Positions 6,913 through 15,023 of a stretch of 33,661 bases of DNA are shown here, piece by piece. The DNA lies in NCBI GenBank assembly GCA_903847405.1, contig CAINDP010000107.1:1-33661 (forward strand). The letters run 5' to 3'. A model generated the notes under the pieces. It was given only the letters and a program-made list of their open reading frames with translations. It was not told the DNA's origin and did not search any database. Numbering within the stretch: position 1 is the stretch's first letter; each line of letters begins with the position of its first letter. Position numbers and translations under genes: made by a program. This DNA comes from an uncultured Myxococcales bacterium. GTDB taxonomy: Bacteria; Myxococcota_A; UBA9042; DTJE01.

Positions 6913-6921
6913 TACGAAAGG

Positions 6922-8364
6922 CTAGCCGCGCGGGTCCGGGGGCACCCAGCCGCCCATGGCCTGTTCCAGGGCCATTGCGACCGCGATCGTGCGGTGGTCG
7001 TTGCCGTGGATCGAGGCGACCTGGCAGCCCAGGGGGAGGCCCCGGTCGTTCAGGCCCAAGGGGACCTGGGTGACGGGCATTTCCAGAACGTTGAAGATGC
7101 CGGTGTAGATCCAGTTGATGGGCCGCAGCAGCGGCTTGTTGTGCCGCGGCGCGGGCTCGGGGTAGGACGGGTACAGCAGCACGCCCCCGGGACCCAGGCG
7201 GCGGGCCAGGTCGGCGCCCAGGGCCGCCGTTTCCTCCAGGAGGGGGCCGAACCGGGGCGGGAACCGGGCGGACACGGCCTCGATCAGGCCCAGCCCCAGG
7301 GCGGGCAGCGTGTGGCGGCCCCGGCCCGCGGCCCACAGCAGGAATTCCAGGCCGAGGTGGAACGGCTTGCCGTTGCCCAGCAGCGAAAGGTAGGTCGACT
7401 CGCCGCCGGTGGCGACCGTCGCTGTCCACATCAGGATGGCGCGGGCCAGGGCCGGGACGCGCTCCACCCGGACCCGGGCGCCCCGGGCCGCCAGGCAGGA
7501 CGCGGCACGGCGCTGGGCGTCGCGCAGATCGTCGGACACCGACAGCAGGCCGTCGTCCTCGACCGACACCACGTCCAGGCCCTCCAGGGACACGGTCGCG
7601 GGATCGCCCAGGGGCAGGACGGTGCAGCCCGTGTCCACGCCGTCGGGGCCCGCCAGCAGGCGCAGCAGCGGGTACAGATCCTCGGCTCGACGGCAGATCG
7701 GCCCCGTCGTCAGGACCCGCACCAGGCCGTGCTCCGCGCACGGGAACTGGCCGGTGTTGGGGACCAGGCCGCCCGAGGGCTTGTGGCCGAAGACGCCGTT
7801 GAAGAAGGCCGGCATGCGGATGGACCCGCCGATGTCCGAGCCGACGCCGAAGGGCGACGCGGCCGACCCGATCAGCGCGCCTTCGCCGCCGGAACTGCCG
7901 CCCGAGGTCCGGCCCGGGTCGTAGGCGCAGTTCGTGCGGCCGTAGTTCGGGTTGCTGGCTTCCATCCACAGGCACAGTTCCGAGACGTTGGTCACGCCCA
8001 GGGGAATGGCGCCGGCAGCCCGGTATCGGGCCACCGCGGTGGCATCCTTGGTGGCGGGGTGGCCGACGCGCGAGGGCAGGCCCCCGGTGTTGGGCATCCC
8101 GGTCAGGGCGAAGCACTCCTTCACCGTGCAGGGCACGCCCAGGAACGGCGGCAAGGTGGCCGGGTCCTCGCGGGCCACCCGGAGGTCGGCGGCGCGGGCC
8201 TCGGCACGGGCCAGGTCGAAGCGATCCGCGACCATCGCGTTGACGCGGGGATTGACCTCGCGGACGCGGCGGGCGTGGGCCTCGACAACATCGACGGACT
8301 GGGTGCCGCGCTCGCGGATCAAGCGGGCCAGCGCGGTCCCGGACAGTGTCAGCAACGGATCCAT
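6922..8364 (-). CDS. Amidase signature family hydrolase
   Basis: This 480-residue cytoplasmic amidase has the complete Ser-cisSer-Lys triad of the family. Lys82 lies in VPCTVKECF, Ser157 in GRTSGGSSGGE and the nucleophile Ser181 in GSDIGGSIRMPA. The spacings (75 and 24 residues) equal those of fatty acid amide hydrolase. The family hydrolyses carboxamides, including fatty amides, aryl amides and amino-acid amides, and the sequence does not fix the substrate. The start at 8364 is chosen for the GGAGG five bases upstream. It is the last gene of the six-gene minus-strand operon, 17 bp after the metallo-hydrolase gene. There is no signal peptide. A glutamyl-tRNA amidotransferase GatA role is unlikely because no gatB or gatC is nearby. 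Confidence 0.92.
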   Translation of the reverse strand: MDPLLTLSGTALARLIRERGTQSVDVVEAHARRVREVNPRVNAMVADRFDLARAEARAADLRVAREDPATLPPFLGVPCTVKECFALTGMPNTGGLPSRVGHPATKDATAVARYRAAGAIPLGVTNVSELCLWMEASNPNYGRTNCAYDPGRTSGGSSGGEGALIGSAASPFGVGSDIGGSIRMPAFFNGVFGHKPSGGLVPNTGQFPCAEHGLVRVLTTGPICRRAEDLYPLLRLLAGPDGVDTGCTVLPLGDPATVSLEGLDVVSVEDDGLLSVSDDLRDAQRRAASCLAARGARVRVERVPALARAILMWTATVATGGESTYLSLLGNGKPFHLGLEFLLWAAGRGRHTLPALGLGLIEAVSARFPPRFGPLLEETAALGADLARRLGPGGVLLYPSYPEPAPRHNKPLLRPINWIYTGIFNVLEMPVTQVPLGLNDRGLPLGCQVASIHGNDHRTIAVAMALEQAMGGWVPPDPRG

Positions 8365-8381
8365 GGTTTCCTCCAGGGCAG

Positions 8382-9212
8382 TCAAGGCTCCCAGGGACCG
8401 ACGACCTTCAGGCCCCGCAGGACCCCCTTGCCCTCCAGCACCGGCCCGTGGCCCGGGAACACGGTGTGGACCGGCAGTTCCTGCAGCGTCGCGATCGTCG
8501 CTTGCATCGACGCACGATCGACCTGGAGGGGGTTCCATTCCCCGCCCAGGAAGTTCCGGACCGTGTCCCCCGTCACCAGGAACCCCGCCCGGCGGTGGAA
8601 CAGCGCGATGGCGTCGTCCGCGTGGCCCGGCGTTTCCAGGACCGTCCAGCCCGGCAGGCCGTCGATACGCGCGCCGTCCTTCAAGGACCGCAATTCGGCC
8701 TGGAAGGGGTTCGGTGCGTTGGGAAAGCCGAACCGGGGGCCGTCGGGCCAGTCCGACCGCGACGGGGACGGAAGACCCTGATACACCCACCCTCCGACCA
8801 GATGCAAGGCGTCCCGATGGTCGGGGAAGCGGAGCGGCGGTCCCCCGCGAATCGCGTCAAATGCCGCGCGACCTACGGCGACGGGCGTTTCCAGTTCCCG
8901 GGCCAGGGCATCGATCCCCATCACGTGGTCGCAGTGCAGATGGGAGGCGACGACGACGCGGACCTCCGACGGGGACCGCCCCAGCCACCGCAGGGCCTCC
9001 AGCACCCGGGGCACGTCCGCATTGGAGCCCACGTCCACCACGGCCACCGCCCGGGGGGCCAGCAGCAGGTAGGTGACGGAGTACCGGTTCGGGAGGGCGA
9101 CCACCGTCGCGCCGGCGCGGGACACGACCCGGACGTCCGGAGCGCCGGCAGGAGACAGGCGCGCGGCCCAGGGACGCGCCGTCGGGAAGGGGGCCGGGGG
9201 AAACAGGTCCAT
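8382..9212 (-). CDS. Metallo-beta-lactamase-fold hydrolase
   Basis: The 276-residue protein has the zinc-binding signature SHLHCDHVMG (HxHxDH). Later ligands are visible in LETPGHADD (His), VTGDTVRNF (Asp) and VFPGHGPVL (His), so both metal sites appear intact. The fold covers thioesterases, lactonases, glyoxalase II and phosphodiesterases. The layout is close to glyoxalase II or lactonase-type enzymes, but the substrate is unknown. The start at 9212 is supported by GAGGTG just upstream; longer frames run into the antisense of the kinase gene. It lies 44 bp after the FGGY kinase gene and 17 bp before the amidase gene, so it should be co-transcribed with both. An activated thioester, lactone or phosphodiester made by the upstream enzymes is a reasonable guess. 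Confidence 0.9.
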   Translation of the reverse strand: MDLFPPAPFPTARPWAARLSPAGAPDVRVVSRAGATVVALPNRYSVTYLLLAPRAVAVVDVGSNADVPRVLEALRWLGRSPSEVRVVVASHLHCDHVMGIDALARELETPVAVGRAAFDAIRGGPPLRFPDHRDALHLVGGWVYQGLPSPSRSDWPDGPRFGFPNAPNPFQAELRSLKDGARIDGLPGWTVLETPGHADDAIALFHRRAGFLVTGDTVRNFLGGEWNPLQVDRASMQATIATLQELPVHTVFPGHGPVLEGKGVLRGLKVVGPWEP

Positions 9213-9256
9213 CGCGCACCTCGCAAGACACGGCTGGGTCGCCCGCCAGGGCCGAC

Positions 9257-10819
9257 CTACGGAAGCGGGGGATACCCGGTGATTTCCCGAATGGACCGGT
9301 ACAGCGGCTGCAACCGCGCGTACAGGGGCCGGTAGACCGACCGGTACAACTGGTCGTACCGCTGCACGTTCGCCGCCACGGGTTCGAACACCCGCCCCAC
9401 GCCGGTCATCGCCGCCACGGCCGTGCGCAGGTCCGGATGCAGCCCGGCTCCGACGGCGCCCAGGATCGCGGCGCCCAGCCCGGAAGCCTCGTCGCAGGAC
9501 GGACGCCGGGCCGGCATCCCGAAGACGTCGGCCGTGATCTGCAGGACCAGGTCGCTGCGGGAACCGCCGCCGCACAGGGTCAGTTCCGTCAGGGGCGTGC
9601 CGGTCCGGGCCACCACCAGGTCCCGGCCGCTGCGCATCTCGTAGGCCAGGCCCTCCAGGATCGCCCGGTACAGGTGCGGCTTCCGGTGCGCCGCCCCGAA
9701 GCCGATGATGGCGCCCTTCCCTTCCGGCCCCGGATGCCGCAGCCCGGGGGTCCAGTAGGGCTGCAGCGTCAGGCCCAGGGAGCCCGGGGGCACCTCGGCG
9801 GCCAGGGCCTCCAGCAGCACTTCGGGCTCCAGGCCCTGCTCCGTGGCGCGCTGGCGTTCCAGATGGGCGAACTGCTCCTTGAACCAGGTCACCATCCAGA
9901 AGCCCCGGAAGACCTGGTACTCGATGTTGTAGCGGCCGGGGCGGGCGCTGGGGTACGGCGGGACCAGGCGGACGGGCTCGACGTACTTCGCCGAATCCAC
10001 GTTGAAGGTCGCGGTGGTGCCGTACCCGATGCACCCCTGGTGCGGCTCCAGGCACCCCGACCCGAGCACTTCACAAGCCTTGTCGGATGCGCCGGATATC
10101 ACAGGCAATCCAACCGGGAGTCCGGTGTGGGCGGCGGCGGCGGCCGTGACGGTTCCCAGGGGCTCCCCGGGCGCGACCAGCACCGGGAGGGTGCCGGGTT
10201 CCACGGCCAGGGCGCTCCACTTCCAGTCGGACGCGCCGCTCCAGGCCAGCTTCTTGAAGTCGAACGGGACGTAGCCGACGGTGCAGGCGACCGAATCCCG
10301 CGCCTGGCCGGTCATCCGCAGCGTCACGAAACCCGACAGCAGCAGGAAGCGGGCCGTCTGCCGGTGGATGTCGGGCTGGTGCTCGGCGACCCAGTTGCAC
10401 TCGGCCTCGGCCTGGAAGCGGGCGACGACACCCCGGGCGCCCGCCAGGGTCAGGGCGGCGTTCCAGGCCCGCGGCAGCCGGGGCGGGCGAGCCGACCGGC
10501 GCTGGTCCAGCCAGATGATTGCCGGGCGCAGGGGGCGATCGGCGGCGTCCAGGTGAACGACCGTCCCGCGCTGGAAGGTCATGACCACGGCGGCCACGCG
10601 GTCCACCGACACGCGCCCCTGCTCCCACAGCAGCCGGCACGCGGTGCCGACGCGCTCCCAGAAATAGTCGGGGTCCATCTCGGCCCAGCCGGGTTCCGGG
10701 GACAGGTACGGGGGGTCGTAGGGGGCACGCGCCTTGTCCAGCATGCGGCCGCGGGCGTCGAACACCAGGGCACGGGTGCTCTGGGTGCCCACGTCGATGG
10801 CCAGGATGGCGTCCTTCAT
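9257..10819 (-). CDS. FGGY-family carbohydrate/polyol kinase
   Basis: The 520-residue product begins with the ATP phosphate-binding motif AIDVGTQSTRALVFD. It also has WLDQRR (substrate region), GYGTTATFN (second phosphate loop) and LTLCGGGSRSDL with DEASGLGAAILG (adenosine/FGGY C-terminal motif). The family phosphorylates sugars and polyols such as glycerol, erythritol, xylulose and ribulose. It is not a typical GlpK by motif and looks closer to the YgcE/xylulokinase-like branch. E. coli ygcE lies next to ygcU, an AGPS-like flavoprotein, so the pairing here has a precedent. Its ATG shares four bases with the stop of glpD (ATGA), which implies translational coupling. GAGGTG lies upstream of the start. 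Confidence 0.9.
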   Translation of the reverse strand: MKDAILAIDVGTQSTRALVFDARGRMLDKARAPYDPPYLSPEPGWAEMDPDYFWERVGTACRLLWEQGRVSVDRVAAVVMTFQRGTVVHLDAADRPLRPAIIWLDQRRSARPPRLPRAWNAALTLAGARGVVARFQAEAECNWVAEHQPDIHRQTARFLLLSGFVTLRMTGQARDSVACTVGYVPFDFKKLAWSGASDWKWSALAVEPGTLPVLVAPGEPLGTVTAAAAAHTGLPVGLPVISGASDKACEVLGSGCLEPHQGCIGYGTTATFNVDSAKYVEPVRLVPPYPSARPGRYNIEYQVFRGFWMVTWFKEQFAHLERQRATEQGLEPEVLLEALAAEVPPGSLGLTLQPYWTPGLRHPGPEGKGAIIGFGAAHRKPHLYRAILEGLAYEMRSGRDLVVARTGTPLTELTLCGGGSRSDLVLQITADVFGMPARRPSCDEASGLGAAILGAVGAGLHPDLRTAVAAMTGVGRVFEPVAANVQRYDQLYRSVYRPLYARLQPLYRSIREITGYPPLP

Positions 10820-12387
10820 CGTGCACCTCGTGTCAGAGATTTCCCGTCCGCCAGCAGGGCGGGACTGTAGAACCGCCGCCACAGGTCGTTGTAGCGGATT
10901 GCCTCCAGGTCCCACCGGGCCTCGTCCCAGCCCAGGGCGGGGCGGACGCGCGGCCCCAGGGCCGGCAGCAGCGACGCGCCGCCGTCCGGCAGCAGCAGGC
11001 CCACCCGCGTCCGGCGCAGCAGCAGGTCGTCCAGGTGCACCACCTGCTCGTGCCGGACCGCCCAGTCCAGTTCGGCCCACAGGAACCGGGTGTCCTCGAT
11101 GGTTTCGAGCCCGCCGGGAAGAGCCCCTGCCAGGACCGCCGGGGCGTCGGGACCGAACCGGCCGGCCAGGCGAGCCGGCAGGTCCACGGCATCCGGATCC
11201 ACCGGGGAGCCCGCCACGGGGGGCTGCCCCGGGGCGCCCAGGTCGCGGACGGCCAGGTCCAGCGCCCTGCGGGCCATCCGGCGGAAGGTGGTCAGCTTGC
11301 CGCCCGCGATCGTGACCAGGCCGTCGTCCACCCACAGCGCCTCGTCGCGGGATTCGCGGGAGGGGTCCTTCTTCCCGGTGCCGATGACCGGCCGCACGCC
11401 GGCGATGGTCGAAAGGACGTCCCCGGGGACCAGGTTCGCCTGGGGAAAGAAGGCGTTGGCGGCCTCCAGAAGGTAGAGCCCTTCCTCCGGCGCGATGGCC
11501 GGCTCCACGGACAGGGACGCGGGATGGTCCAGGTCCGTGGTCCCCAGCAGGATCCGGCCCTCCCAGGGCAGGATGTACAGGTTCCGGCCGTCCGCCGGGC
11601 TGCGCAGGGCCACCGCACGGTCCAGGGGCAGGCGATGGAAGGGCAGGACCAGGTGGCTTCCCCGCAGGGGCCGCAGGCGGGGTTTGCCGCCCTGGCCGCA
11701 CCGCAGGCCGTCGGCCCAGGCGCCCGTCGCGTTGACCACGGCCCGCGCCTGGATCTCGCGGCTGCGACCCGTGACGACGTCCACGGCCGCCACGCCCGCG
11801 ACGCGCCCCTCGCCGTCCCGCAGCACGCGGGCGACCGAAACGTAGTTCAGCGCCGTGCCGCCCAGGGCCCGGCCCTCGGCCAGGACCCGCAGGACCAGTC
11901 GGGCATCGTCCGTCGTGCCGTCCAGGAAGGACCAGGCGCCGCGCTCCAGGCCGGCCAGGCCCGGGACGTGGGCGGACAGTTCCTCGCCCCGCCGGAACTT
12001 CCGGCTGGGCCGACCGGCCATGCGGTCGTACATCGCCAGCAGGACCGCCAGGCCCCCCTTCATGACGCACCCGCCCCGCCGGGGCATCGGGATCACGAAT
12101 TCCAGCGGCGTGACCAGGCCGGCGTACCGGCGCAGCATGTCCTCCCGCTCGCGGACGCTGTGGAACGACGTCCGGATCTGGCCCTGGGCGATGTAGCGCA
12201 GCCCGCCGTGGACCAGCTTCCCGGATCGGCTGGACGTGCCCCAGGCGAAATCGCGCTGCTCCAGCAGCAGGCAGCGGTAGCCGGCCGCGGCTGCCTGCGC
12301 GAACACGCCGGCCCCCGTGATCCCGCCCCCCACCACCACCAGGTCCCAGGGCGCATCCAGTGCGTCCCATGCCTCGTCGCGCGTCAT
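10816..12387 (-). CDS. glpD: Glycerol-3-phosphate dehydrogenase-like flavoenzyme
   Basis: The 523-residue protein has the GlpD hallmarks: an N-terminal FAD dinucleotide-binding motif (VVVGGGITGAGV), then FAWGTSSRSGKLVHGGLRY, a substrate-binding stretch near IGTGKKDPSRES and the C-terminal VTIAGGKLTTFRRMA. It would oxidise sn-glycerol-3-phosphate or another polyol phosphate to the keto phosphate, passing electrons to quinone. Erythritol-phosphate dehydrogenase EryB belongs to the same family, so an alternative polyol phosphate is possible next to an FGGY kinase. Both ends overlap neighbours by ATGA: its start overlaps the stop of the AGPS-like gene, and its stop overlaps the start of the kinase gene. 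Confidence 0.92.
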   Translation of the reverse strand: MTRDEAWDALDAPWDLVVVGGGITGAGVFAQAAAAGYRCLLLEQRDFAWGTSSRSGKLVHGGLRYIAQGQIRTSFHSVREREDMLRRYAGLVTPLEFVIPMPRRGGCVMKGGLAVLLAMYDRMAGRPSRKFRRGEELSAHVPGLAGLERGAWSFLDGTTDDARLVLRVLAEGRALGGTALNYVSVARVLRDGEGRVAGVAAVDVVTGRSREIQARAVVNATGAWADGLRCGQGGKPRLRPLRGSHLVLPFHRLPLDRAVALRSPADGRNLYILPWEGRILLGTTDLDHPASLSVEPAIAPEEGLYLLEAANAFFPQANLVPGDVLSTIAGVRPVIGTGKKDPSRESRDEALWVDDGLVTIAGGKLTTFRRMARRALDLAVRDLGAPGQPPVAGSPVDPDAVDLPARLAGRFGPDAPAVLAGALPGGLETIEDTRFLWAELDWAVRHEQVVHLDDLLLRRTRVGLLLPDGGASLLPALGPRVRPALGWDEARWDLEAIRYNDLWRRFYSPALLADGKSLTRGAR

Positions 12388-14003
12388 GTTCCAACCTCCT
12401 CCCCGTCGCCGTGCAGCAGGTTGCCGGTGTCGAACAGGCCCTCGGGATCCACGGCCCGGACGGCCGATCGCAACAGGGACATGCCGACCGGGCCCTTTTC
12501 CGCGGGCAGCCAGGCCCGGTGGTCGCGGCCGACGCCGTGCTGGTGGCTGATGGTCCCGCCGAAGCGGCCGATCGTTTCACAGGCCGCGGCCTTGGCACGG
12601 CCCCAGCGTTCCAGCAGGGCCTCCGGGTCGGCGCCCAGGCGGAACAGGTACGTCGTGTAGGCGCTGGTCCCGTGGGGATACACGTGGGACAGGTGCGTGA
12701 AGATGTGGATTTTTTCGCTTTCGGTTTCGAATTCGGCCCGGATCGCCGACTCCACGGCAGCGATGTACTGGGGGACCTGGGCCCAGGGCAGCGCCGTTTC
12801 CAGCGTGTCGATCCCGTATCCCCGCTCCCAGAGGCTGTTCCGCAGGTACGGGAACTCGAAGCGGGTCCGGAACCACTTGTTGCCCGCGATCCCGCCGATG
12901 ACCACGCCGCCGTGCTTGCGGACCAGGGCATGGGTTTCGGCCAGGGCCGTCCGCACGCGACGGGGGCTGCCGGCGGCGCCCACCAGCATCAGGCACGCGT
13001 CCTCGCGCACGCCGTGCAACCCCAGCCAGCCGTCCAGGACCCGGGCCTTGAACCCCCCGTGCCCACTGAGGGCCAGACCCGTGCGGGTTTCTTCGGTCAG
13101 GCTCAGGCGGGCCATGATCAGGTCCACGCCCGACTGGACGATTTCCCGGACGCAGGCCATGCCGGCCTCCGGGTTCGGCAGGAAGCACCCCGAAAAGGCC
13201 TGGCGGGCGGGCTGGCGCATGACCTTCATCGTGCACGACGTGATCACGCCCAGGCGCCCCTCGGACCCCAGCACGACCTGGCGCAGGTCCGGACCTGCGG
13301 CCGACGCCGGCACCGGGGCGATGCGGAGGGTGTCCCGGGCGTTCACGACCTCGCCCCCGGCGAACAGGCCCTCGATCCGGCCGTAGCCCTTGGAGAAGTG
13401 GCCGGCGCTGCGGGTCGCGACCCAGCCGCCCAGCGTCGACAGTTCGAAGGACTGGGGATAGTGTCCCAGCGTGAAGCCCCGGGCGTTCAGGGCGGCTTCC
13501 AGGTCCGGTCCCACGACGCCCGCCTGGAACGTGGCCAGGCAGCCGGCGGCATCCAGGTCCAGCAGCGCCGTCATCCGCTCCATCGACAGGCCCAGGACGG
13601 GCCGGTCCACGCCGGCCACGGACAGGTGGCCCGCGACGCTGGTTCCGCCGCCCCAGGGCAGGACCACGGCCCCGACGTCCCGGGCATGCGCCAGGAAGCC
13701 GCGGACCTCGTCCGTCGTCGTGGGGAACGCCACGCCGTCCAGGATCGCCGGCAGCCGCCCCGTGCGGATCGCGACCCAGTCGGGGAAGCTCTGGCCCACG
13801 CCGTGGCGCAGACGGGCTTCCCCGCCGGTGTCGATGCCCGGGGCCGCCTGCAGGCGGGAGGCCGGCAGCCCCGCGATCGCGGCCGCCATCGTGGCGTCCT
13901 TCGGCGGCGAGGCGGTTCCCAGGCGGGCCTCCAGGAAGGCCCGGGCCCCCTCGTTCACGTCGTGGTGGTTGCCGTCGTCGCCCCAGCCGTTCCAGCGTCG
14001 CAT
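12384..14003 (-). CDS. AGPS-like FAD-linked oxidase
   Basis: The 539-residue product is a VAO/PCMH-type flavoprotein. The FAD-binding region includes VAFPTTTDEVRGFLAHAR and VLPWGGGTSVAGHLS, then STLGGWVATRSAGHFSKGYG. The C-terminal part has SHQHGVGRDHRAWL, aligning with the HHHGVGK active-site segment of alkyldihydroxyacetonephosphate synthase (AGPS), here with Gln as the middle residue. AGPS swaps the acyl chain of acyl-DHAP for a fatty alcohol to make ether lipids; bacterial relatives include YgcU and many lactate- or glycolate-oxidase-like enzymes. With GlpD and a kinase in the same operon, glycerolipid or ether-glycerol chemistry is plausible but unproven. The gene starts 36 bp after the regulator gene and is coupled to glpD by a 4-bp overlap. 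Confidence 0.85.
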   Translation of the reverse strand: MRRWNGWGDDGNHHDVNEGARAFLEARLGTASPPKDATMAAAIAGLPASRLQAAPGIDTGGEARLRHGVGQSFPDWVAIRTGRLPAILDGVAFPTTTDEVRGFLAHARDVGAVVLPWGGGTSVAGHLSVAGVDRPVLGLSMERMTALLDLDAAGCLATFQAGVVGPDLEAALNARGFTLGHYPQSFELSTLGGWVATRSAGHFSKGYGRIEGLFAGGEVVNARDTLRIAPVPASAAGPDLRQVVLGSEGRLGVITSCTMKVMRQPARQAFSGCFLPNPEAGMACVREIVQSGVDLIMARLSLTEETRTGLALSGHGGFKARVLDGWLGLHGVREDACLMLVGAAGSPRRVRTALAETHALVRKHGGVVIGGIAGNKWFRTRFEFPYLRNSLWERGYGIDTLETALPWAQVPQYIAAVESAIRAEFETESEKIHIFTHLSHVYPHGTSAYTTYLFRLGADPEALLERWGRAKAAACETIGRFGGTISHQHGVGRDHRAWLPAEKGPVGMSLLRSAVRAVDPEGLFDTGNLLHGDGEEVGT

Positions 14004-14017
14004 CGTTGCTCCTTCCG

Positions 14018-14032
14018 GTCGCCTTTGGCGAC
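14018..14032 (-). other. Intercistronic stem-loop
   Basis: In the 36-bp gap between the regulator stop and the AGPS-like start, GTCGCC-AAA-GGCGAC forms a perfect six-pair stem with a three-base loop, ending a few bases before the GGAAGGAGC ribosome-binding site. It might stabilise or tune the downstream part of the mRNA. Confidence 0.4.
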
Positions 14033-14039
14033 GTCGTCC

Positions 14040-14729
14040 CTAGGCCGTCCGGTTCCAGGCCTCGCCGGCTGCCGCCAGGGCCCGCACGGCCACTTCCCGC
14101 GCGCGCCCGCCGTCCCGGTCCATGGCCGCCGCCAGCAGGTCCTGGTAGTACTGCAGGGAGGACTGGCGGTTTTCCGCGGCCGCGAAGTACCGGGCCGCCA
14201 GCGTTTCGTAGAACGGGTCGAAACTGTTGAGGATCAGCAGGAACACCGGGTTCGGGTCCAGGCGGGCCAGGGCCCGGTGCAGTTCCCAGTCGAACCGGGC
14301 GAAGGCCCGGGGGTCGTCGGACAGCGCAGCGGCTTCCGCCAGCGTCGCCACCACGCGGGCCGGGTCCCGGGCCACGGCATCCCCGATGAAGACCGGCGCC
14401 AGGGCCGTGCGGATATCCAGCATGTGCGCGACGAACGCCGCTCCGACCGGCGACGGATGGCCGATGATGGCCGGGATCACGTTCAGGGTGCCCGTGGACA
14501 GGTAGTCGTTGACCACCGTGGCAGACCCCTTCCGCACCGTGATCCAGCCGTCCCGCTCCAGGCGGGAAATCGCCTCGCGCAGCGTGGGCCGTCCCACGCC
14601 CAGTTCCACCGCCATCTCCCGCTCCAGCGGCAGCGTGGTCCCCGGCCCGAACCGGCCGTCGACGATCCAGCCGACGATCCGCCGTTCCACCTGGTCCGAC
14701 AGTCTCTGCTTCCCCGGGGTCACACTCAA
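14040..14729 (-). CDS. FadR/GntR-family transcriptional regulator
   Basis: The 229-residue protein has an N-terminal winged helix typical of GntR regulators (PLEREMAVELGVGRPTLREAI, then LERDGWITVRKGSATVV). An all-helical FadR-type (FCD) ligand domain follows, with the metal/ligand-site pattern D..R.ALAP (about residue 109), FDWELHRALARL and a later helix. Such regulators usually repress the adjacent operon and respond to an organic acid or acyl compound. The start is uncommon: TTG at 14729 with AGGT upstream, or GTG at 14723 two codons later. It is the first gene of the operon, and two palindromes at its start suggest autoregulation. Confidence 0.9.
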   Translation of the reverse strand: MSVTPGKQRLSDQVERRIVGWIVDGRFGPGTTLPLEREMAVELGVGRPTLREAISRLERDGWITVRKGSATVVNDYLSTGTLNVIPAIIGHPSPVGAAFVAHMLDIRTALAPVFIGDAVARDPARVVATLAEAAALSDDPRAFARFDWELHRALARLDPNPVFLLILNSFDPFYETLAARYFAAAENRQSSLQYYQDLLAAAMDRDGGRAREVAVRALAAAGEAWNRTA

Positions 14730-14760
14730 GGTCTTACCTGTTCCGTTTCAGGTCTGACCT
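14729..14760 (-). promoter_or_regulatory. Twin FadR-type operator palindromes
   Basis: AGGTCTTACCT (14729-14739) and AGGTCTGACCT (14750-14760) are two palindromes with AGGT/ACCT arms and three-base centres, 21 bp apart, which is two helical turns. FadR-subfamily operators commonly have the form NGTNNNACN. They lie between the -10 box and the start codon of the regulator, a good position for repression. Confidence 0.6.
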
Positions 14761-14761
14761 G

Positions 14762-14790
14762 CTTCTACCCCCGCGGGTCCCGGGTGTCAA
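14762..14790 (-). promoter_or_regulatory. Promoter of the regulator-AGPS-glpD-kinase operon
   Basis: On the minus strand a perfect TTGACA (14790-14785) is followed after 17 bp by TAGAAG (14767-14762). Transcription would start near 14755, inside the distal operator palindrome. Confidence 0.6.
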
Positions 14791-14797
14791 GCGACCG

Positions 14798-14960
14798 AAA
14801 TGGGGACAGACACCATTTCTCGCAAGCACTGGTTTTCACAGTCAACCGCTGGCACACGGAAAATCGGAGGCTCAACCCCCTTTCTGCCACACGATCATCA
14901 CAAGTCCCCGTCCTCACGATCAAAGGCTGGCGCCAGAGAAATCGGTGTCTGTCCCCATTT
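14798..14960. mobile_element. MITE/REP-like element with terminal inverted repeats
   Basis: The left end (14798-14820) begins AAATGGGGACAGACACC and the right end (14937-14960) is its reverse complement with a single extra base, giving 23/24-nt terminal inverted repeats around a 163-bp element with no ORF of its own. Inside, 14823-14882 and 14901-14960 align without gaps at roughly 38 of 60 positions by hand, so the element contains a diverged tandem duplication with a 78-bp period. The terminal sequence is one I recall flanking IS200-like REP-associated tyrosine transposases in many bacteria, which suggests a non-autonomous copy. Another GTCCCCATTT copy follows at 14966-14975. Confidence 0.6.
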
Positions 14961-15023
14961 CCGCTGTCCCCATTTCCGGGGAGCGCCGGGCCGCGGTGGG
15001 AAGGGGCCGGGCGCCCGGGGACC

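Follow-up and report, generated by a model that had tools for sequence, protein, structure and literature searches.

The trio of genes PA3026-PA3024 of Pseudomonas aeruginosa has been in print since 2021 as part of the GliR regulon (Kotecka 2021, PMC8151288). In that paper, overproduction of GliR raised the expression of the three genes 135- to 173-fold with co-activation of a phospholipase C, and growth on glycerol, on citrate, and on BIOLOG plates was unaffected by their deletion. The in silico proposal of Kotecka et al. for these genes runs in the synthetic direction. No demonstrated function of a trio of AGPS, GlpD, and FGGY kinase genes was found in the open-licence literature. The animal enzyme AGMO is described, in the abstracts of two papers, as the sole enzyme known to cleave the alkyl ether bond of alkylglycerols and ether lipids (PMC7911779, PMC9192799). 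The locus analysed in this work lies in a stretch of 33,661 bp (the window) from an uncultured Myxococcales bacterium (GCA_903847405.1), which is contig C107 (CAINDP010000107.1) of a 5.65 Mb assembly of 273 contigs. Six genes, all on the minus strand, run there from position 14729 to 6922 with intergenic gaps of 36, -4, -4, 44, and 17 bp; the genes, order, and gaps given in an earlier note on this DNA are all confirmed. We tentatively read the locus as a FadR-type-regulated operon built on a trio of the PA3026-PA3024 kind, which may channel glycerol ethers derived from ether lipids, the 1-O-alkylglycerols, into central metabolism.

The window operon has the same three enzyme kinds in the same order as PA3026-PA3024, for which a glycerolipid role has been proposed. 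They are an AGPS-like flavin adenine dinucleotide (FAD) enzyme with HQH replacing HHH (12384-14003), a GlpD-like FAD dehydrogenase (10816-12387), and an FGGY kinase with an altered glycerol pocket (9257-10819). However, PA3026-PA3024 has the divergent AraC-type activator GliR and a YegS-like lipid kinase, whereas the window has a co-directional FadR-type regulator, a metallo-beta-lactamase-fold (MBL) hydrolase, and an amidase. Because of that regulator, the window operon is regarded as a variant with the same enzymes that falls outside the GliR regulon. PA3026-PA3024 is likened to the window by description, and the sequence comparison with Pseudomonas used other loci of that genus (e.g., L128).

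The conserved unit consists of three genes (AGPS-like, GlpD-like, and FGGY kinase), not six. Bacterial and archaeal genomes were scanned with a six-sequence AGPS alignment as the query, which gave at least 588 encoding stretches. The best 80 loci were taken, a sample that is skewed toward close relatives of the query. In these loci, tblastn identified AGPS in 80, GlpD in 75, and FGGY kinase in 55. GlpD follows AGPS in 67 of the 69 loci with enough contig room, including L168 where GlpD overlaps AGPS by 14 bp, and the kinase follows in 48 of the 60 loci with enough room. When sorted by eye from their record titles, the 80 loci comprise 28 gammaproteobacterial, 21 Chloroflexota, 16 betaproteobacterial, and 15 other loci, so the trio is spread across many phyla. 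Within the phylum of the window, AGPS matches at 1e-90 or better were present in 34 of 377 sampled genomes; HHH paralogues contribute to this number, so the trio itself is less common. Regulators and an SDR (11 loci) were notable by eye among the sequence clusters that surround the core, most of which are without annotation, so that some genomes may well have transporter or acyltransferase genes close to the core. The search of plasmids gave four actinobacterial matches at 34-39%. An acyl-CoA dehydrogenase gene (L118:13666-14880) was also seen after a FadR-trio operon in a metagenome-assembled genome labelled Bacillota.

The AGPS-like enzyme (FAD-oxidase_C, 3.6e-35) has the ADPS of Dictyostelium as its best PDB match (4.1e-66). 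Its structural model has a mean predicted local distance difference test score (pLDDT) of 82.5, with low pLDDT in the loops of H126 and Q488. The model fits mammalian AGPS with a Z score of 40.7 and a root-mean-square deviation of 2.0 over 513 residues, and the next kind of fold is D-lactate dehydrogenase with a Z score of 32.1. AGPS is thus clearly the nearest solved fold to the modelled enzyme. The likeness to peroxisomal AGPS and Dictyostelium ADPS extends to the N-terminal WNGWG motif, the counterparts of Y578 and R419 (two positions altered in 4bca and 4bc7), and the first and third histidines of the HHH motif, where these two tyrosine and arginine equivalents and both histidines are retained in 87/87 members of the AGPS-like family. 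In contrast, the middle histidine is Q in 84/87 members, although it is H in 20/20 AGPS paralogues outside the family, and the window enzyme is accompanied by a kinase and GlpD. This substitution is the reason why the window enzyme is not filed as AGPS. The Q is accompanied by H126 in the flavin loop, which is H in 85/87 family members and G in 14/14 near paralogues. Q at the position of AGPS D303 was rejected as a marker of the trio since 14 near HHH paralogues carry it too. Two loci (L085 and L089) have an HHH-type AGPS beside GlpD (37-40%) and a FadR-like gene (28%), which is a sister arrangement of the trio.

The GlpD-like dehydrogenase (DAO, 6.5e-52) matches 3da1 best (8.5e-68). R54, Y55, H233, R317, R332, and K354, which we take to be the site residues of E. 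coli GlpD, are retained in the window protein and in 73/73 relatives. The retention of these six residues makes a substrate with a glycerol-3-phosphate (G3P) backbone likely. The FGGY kinase (FGGY_N, 2.9e-37) retains R83, W103, and D245 of GlpK, as do 56/56 relatives. The E84 position is G in 43, A in 10, and S in 3 of these relatives, the Y135 position is F in 39, L in 16, and V in 1, and both residues are replaced in the window kinase too; the Q246 position is K in 55/56. R83, E84, W103, Y135, and D245 are presumably the glycerol-contacting residues of the GlpK pocket. The pocket may therefore be opened for a substituted glycerol, given that two of these presumed contacts (E84 and Y135) are replaced, and for the same reason the kinase is not filed as GlpK. 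The genome encodes two further GlpD homologues and, at C11 (L042), a GlpK-like gene with the standard pocket set, which is the only such FGGY paralogue found. The C11 match carries two in-frame stops, which indicate either a broken gene or an assembly error. Because of these other GlpD homologues and the standard-pocket GlpK with its two stops, ordinary glycerol metabolism need not run through the trio.

The first gene of the operon encodes a FadR-type GntR regulator with a TTG start (14040-14729), whose FadR identity was not mentioned in the earlier note and neither was an operator. Its FadR_C domain (PF07840, 1.4e-30) scores 106.7 bits against a Pfam cut-off of 23.6, and its best solved structure is E. 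coli FadR (1hw1, 4.8e-36). The only promoter-like site readable ahead of the operon consists of a -35 element TTGACA (14785-14790), a spacer of 17 bp, and a -10 element TAGAAG (14762-14767) on the minus strand. Both elements were read directly and are the same upstream of the operon in the congener G001. A stock promoter scanner omits this site because it requires the second hexamer to end in T. A FadR-type putative operator, the palindrome AGGTCAGACCT (14750-14760), lies directly downstream of the -10 element. A second putative copy with one mismatch, AGGTAAGACCT (14729-14739), is 21 bp from the first and abuts the start codon. The congener G001 exhibits the same tandem arrangement with AGGTATGACCT at the position of the second copy. 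The location of the operators on the promoter suggests repression.

The operator AGGTCAGACCT is the core of the FadR consensus AACTGGTCNGACCAGTT, as quoted in the literature (PMC3626644). Across the 5.65 Mb genome, an exact copy of the palindrome is found at a single place, compared with 11 places for a reversed control pattern. Operator matches with at most one mismatch number 4 in the window against 1.2 expected. The conservation of the operator was gauged in 21 other FadR-bearing trio loci by the closest match to TGGTCNGACCA in a region that begins 200 bp upstream and extends 30 bp into the gene; L162 was dropped because it had too little upstream sequence. This match has no more than one mismatch in 13 loci and two mismatches in 4, while three further loci show three mismatches and one locus four. 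Shuffled sequences gave a match with at most one mismatch in 0.55% of cases and random stretches in 1.6%, compared with 13 of the 21 loci. The window has two mismatches to TGGTCNGACCA because both outer bases are swapped symmetrically. The regulator resembles E. coli FadR in its GntR and FadR_C domains and the operator core GGTCNGACC, and differs in that its system has one exact site in the genome, its acyl-CoA residues are partly changed, and it falls below the NCBIfam FadR equivalog cut-off (162.4 vs 189). Together, the FadR identity and an operator that is unique in the genome and conserved tie the trio to lipid sensing.

The six genes likely form a single transcript, judging from the gaps and the one promoter-like site, and the regulated operon described in the earlier note is borne out to that extent. 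Pfam backs the family assignment of all six genes. None of the six proteins reaches an NCBIfam cut-off among the rows listed, as illustrated by the GlpD-like protein (238.9 vs 360 for the GlpD equivalog) and the kinase (135.2 vs 590.35 for GlpK), and hence they are considered relatives and not textbook members. The block 6929-14793 shares 83% DNA identity with G001, one of two congener genomes (G001 and G002) that are drafts. The flanks of the block differ, which indicates that the six genes are kept together in G001. An inverted pair, GAAATGGGGACAGACACC and GGTGTCTGTCCCCATTTC, was observed at 14797-14961 directly upstream of the promoter. The 17-mer core of this pair has 92 + 108 copies in the genome against 0 for the control, frequently as close inverted pairs. 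A genome-wide repeat family thus ends beside the operon promoter, beyond the stretch that is common to G001.

The earlier note had suggested the breakdown of an ether- or amide-linked glycerol lipid, and the breakdown of ether-linked glycerol lipids is the reading favoured here too. The FGGY kinase would phosphorylate the free end of an alkylglycerol to alkyl-G3P, and the GlpD-like enzyme would oxidise carbon 2 to give alkyl-dihydroxyacetone phosphate (alkyl-DHAP). The AGPS-like enzyme would then free the alkyl group as a fatty alcohol through a flavin adduct of the AGPS type. Water or a fatty acid would be the acceptor in this step and would leave DHAP or acyl-DHAP. Oxidation of the fatty alcohol would yield acyl-CoA, which would release the FadR-type repressor from the tandem operators. 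The net route would be the reverse of peroxisomal ether-lipid synthesis. This breakdown route would explain the kinase pocket that is unlike GlpK, the other GlpD and GlpK relatives in the genome, and the control by a lipid-type sensor. A broader proposal, which is possible and somewhat less probable, is that such loci represent a widespread oxygen-independent bacterial ether cleavage that combines reversed AGPS chemistry with its own alkylglycerol kinase, alkyl-G3P dehydrogenase, and FadR-type lipid-sensor switch. If true, a route of kinase, dehydrogenase, and flavin adduct would explain the recycling of ether lipids by environmental bacteria, and the trio, whose role was left open by Kotecka et al., would gain a function. 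The FadR operator, the changes in the kinase pocket, and the separation of core and add-on genes make the idea of ether cleavage directly testable.

Several findings weigh against this breakdown route. We know of no report of AGPS running in reverse on alkyl-DHAP. The acyl-CoA-binding residues of FadR appear only partly retained in the regulator. In the alignment with 1hw1, W223 aligns, the equivalent of G216 is changed, and the protein ends before K228, where the three residues are taken to be those that serve acyl-CoA binding in FadR. FadR was identified by tblastn in only 22 of the 80 core loci, and another upstream sequence cluster occurs in 25/87 loci, and its one scanned member is of the AraC type. 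Of the 60 loci with room, 12 have no kinase nearby. E. coli YgcE has lost E84 as well, so this change is no pointer to alkylglycerol alone. HQH versus HHH was rejected as a perfect marker of the trio, in view of the family exceptions L125, L131, and L143 and the HHH paralogues L085 and L089. Desulfatibacillum alkenivorans (L119), which belongs to a genus that we take to make glycerol ethers, carries the trio with FadR, and this fits synthesis equally well.

Forward ether-lipid synthesis, as proposed by Kotecka et al., is the strongest of the other readings, and we consider it unlikely. The kinase would produce G3P, GlpD would convert it to DHAP, a separate acyltransferase would give acyl-DHAP, and AGPS would give alkyl-DHAP. 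The AGPS fold and the retention of most catalytic residues fit this scheme. However, a route from glycerol to DHAP seems to be present elsewhere in the genome, the trio kinase is without two of the GlpK pocket residues in 56/56 relatives, and the window operon has no acyltransferase. The second AGPS of the genome, encoded at C78 (L050:8452-10074), carries the standard HHH motif, has no GlpD or FGGY relatives beside it, and is a candidate for true ether-lipid synthesis. Moreover, many carriers of the trio are Pseudomonas, Massilia, and Marinobacter, which to our knowledge are not known to make ether lipids. The published in silico proposal favours synthesis, although in the same work the co-activation of a phospholipase C with the P. 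aeruginosa trio suits breakdown (PMC8151288), and the unaltered growth of the deletion on glycerol is in line with breakdown as well. Synthesis gains, too, from the trio in D. alkenivorans, a species named in a paper about alkyl glycerol ethers in bacteria (PMC5552659). In breakdown, the three enzymes are consecutive and sufficient, whereas synthesis also needs a DHAP acyltransferase and a source of fatty alcohol. The degradative direction appears likelier than the synthetic one.

The catabolism of a polyol or sugar, in the manner of YgcU/YgcE or EryA/EryB, is doubtful and ranks below synthesis. The substrate, a polyol, would be phosphorylated by the kinase, with oxidation falling to the GlpD-like and AGPS-like enzymes. 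The kinase scores 216 bits to E. coli YgcE and 119 bits to GlpK and shares the R/W/D-K pocket residues of YgcE, and the fold class of the AGPS-like enzyme takes in D-2-hydroxyacid dehydrogenases (Z about 32). YgcU and YgcE, named as a precedent in the earlier note, hold as a distant one. They share 29% and 30% identity with the window enzymes and likewise place an FAD enzyme and an FGGY kinase near each other. However, they are encoded on opposite strands and separated by an SDR and a transporter gene, that region carries no GlpD, and both are distant cousins of the window enzymes. The FadR-type regulator with its conserved operator, the GlpD site residues retained in 73/73 relatives, and the better fit to AGPS than to D-lactate dehydrogenase all stand against a polyol or sugar substrate. 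The BIOLOG screen of the P. aeruginosa deletion gave no growth effect (PMC8151288), which does not favour such a substrate either.

The remaining two genes encode the MBL hydrolase (8382-9212; Lactamase_B, 6.3e-23) and an amidase-signature hydrolase (6922-8364; PF01425 Amidase, 1.4e-76), both lineage add-ons. The MBL hydrolase has the motif HLHCDH at residue 91 with H197, D216, and H255, and the amidase has the motifs VKE, GGSSGG, and GSDIGGS. The two genes are a separate pair from the trio. Neither was found by tblastn in any of the best 80 core loci. The full six-gene order, for which the earlier note had advised a search, was recovered elsewhere only in G001, where the MBL reading frame is split over two frames (L043:5509-6335), so that the MBL hydrolase may be dispensable or the split may be an assembly error. 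The congener G002 has the block 6916-9229 with the MBL and amidase genes between a carbamoyltransferase gene and an AHSA1-domain gene, without the trio, and the best AGPS match in its genome is at 41%. The DNA shared with G002 ends 17 bp upstream of the MBL start, within the 44 bp gap after the kinase, and for this reason the trio and the MBL-amidase unit were probably joined in that gap. The separation of the genes in most genomes, which the earlier note had held would speak against it, is seen for the MBL and amidase genes and is not seen for the trio.

The MBL hydrolase is nearest to PqsE/GloB-type proteins by both sequence and fold, with PqsE nearest by fold, and NAPE-PLD is neither among the 29 PDB sequences that match it (E 0.001) nor among the 50 fold matches listed. 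The amidase is nearer to the bacterial amidase 9je9 (1e-52) than to FAAH (1.6e-32). The earlier suggestions of a NAPE-type phosphodiesterase and a FAAH-like amidase are thus unsupported by sequence or fold. A pathway of all six genes that acts on glycerol lipids with amide or ether links and includes those two activities as steps is very improbable and was rejected on distribution, even though all six genes occur as one block in two species. The pair represents lineage-specific hydrolases that perhaps act upstream. In 282 genomes of the phylum, relatives of the amidase (1e-90) occur in 92 and relatives of the MBL hydrolase (1e-35) in 7.

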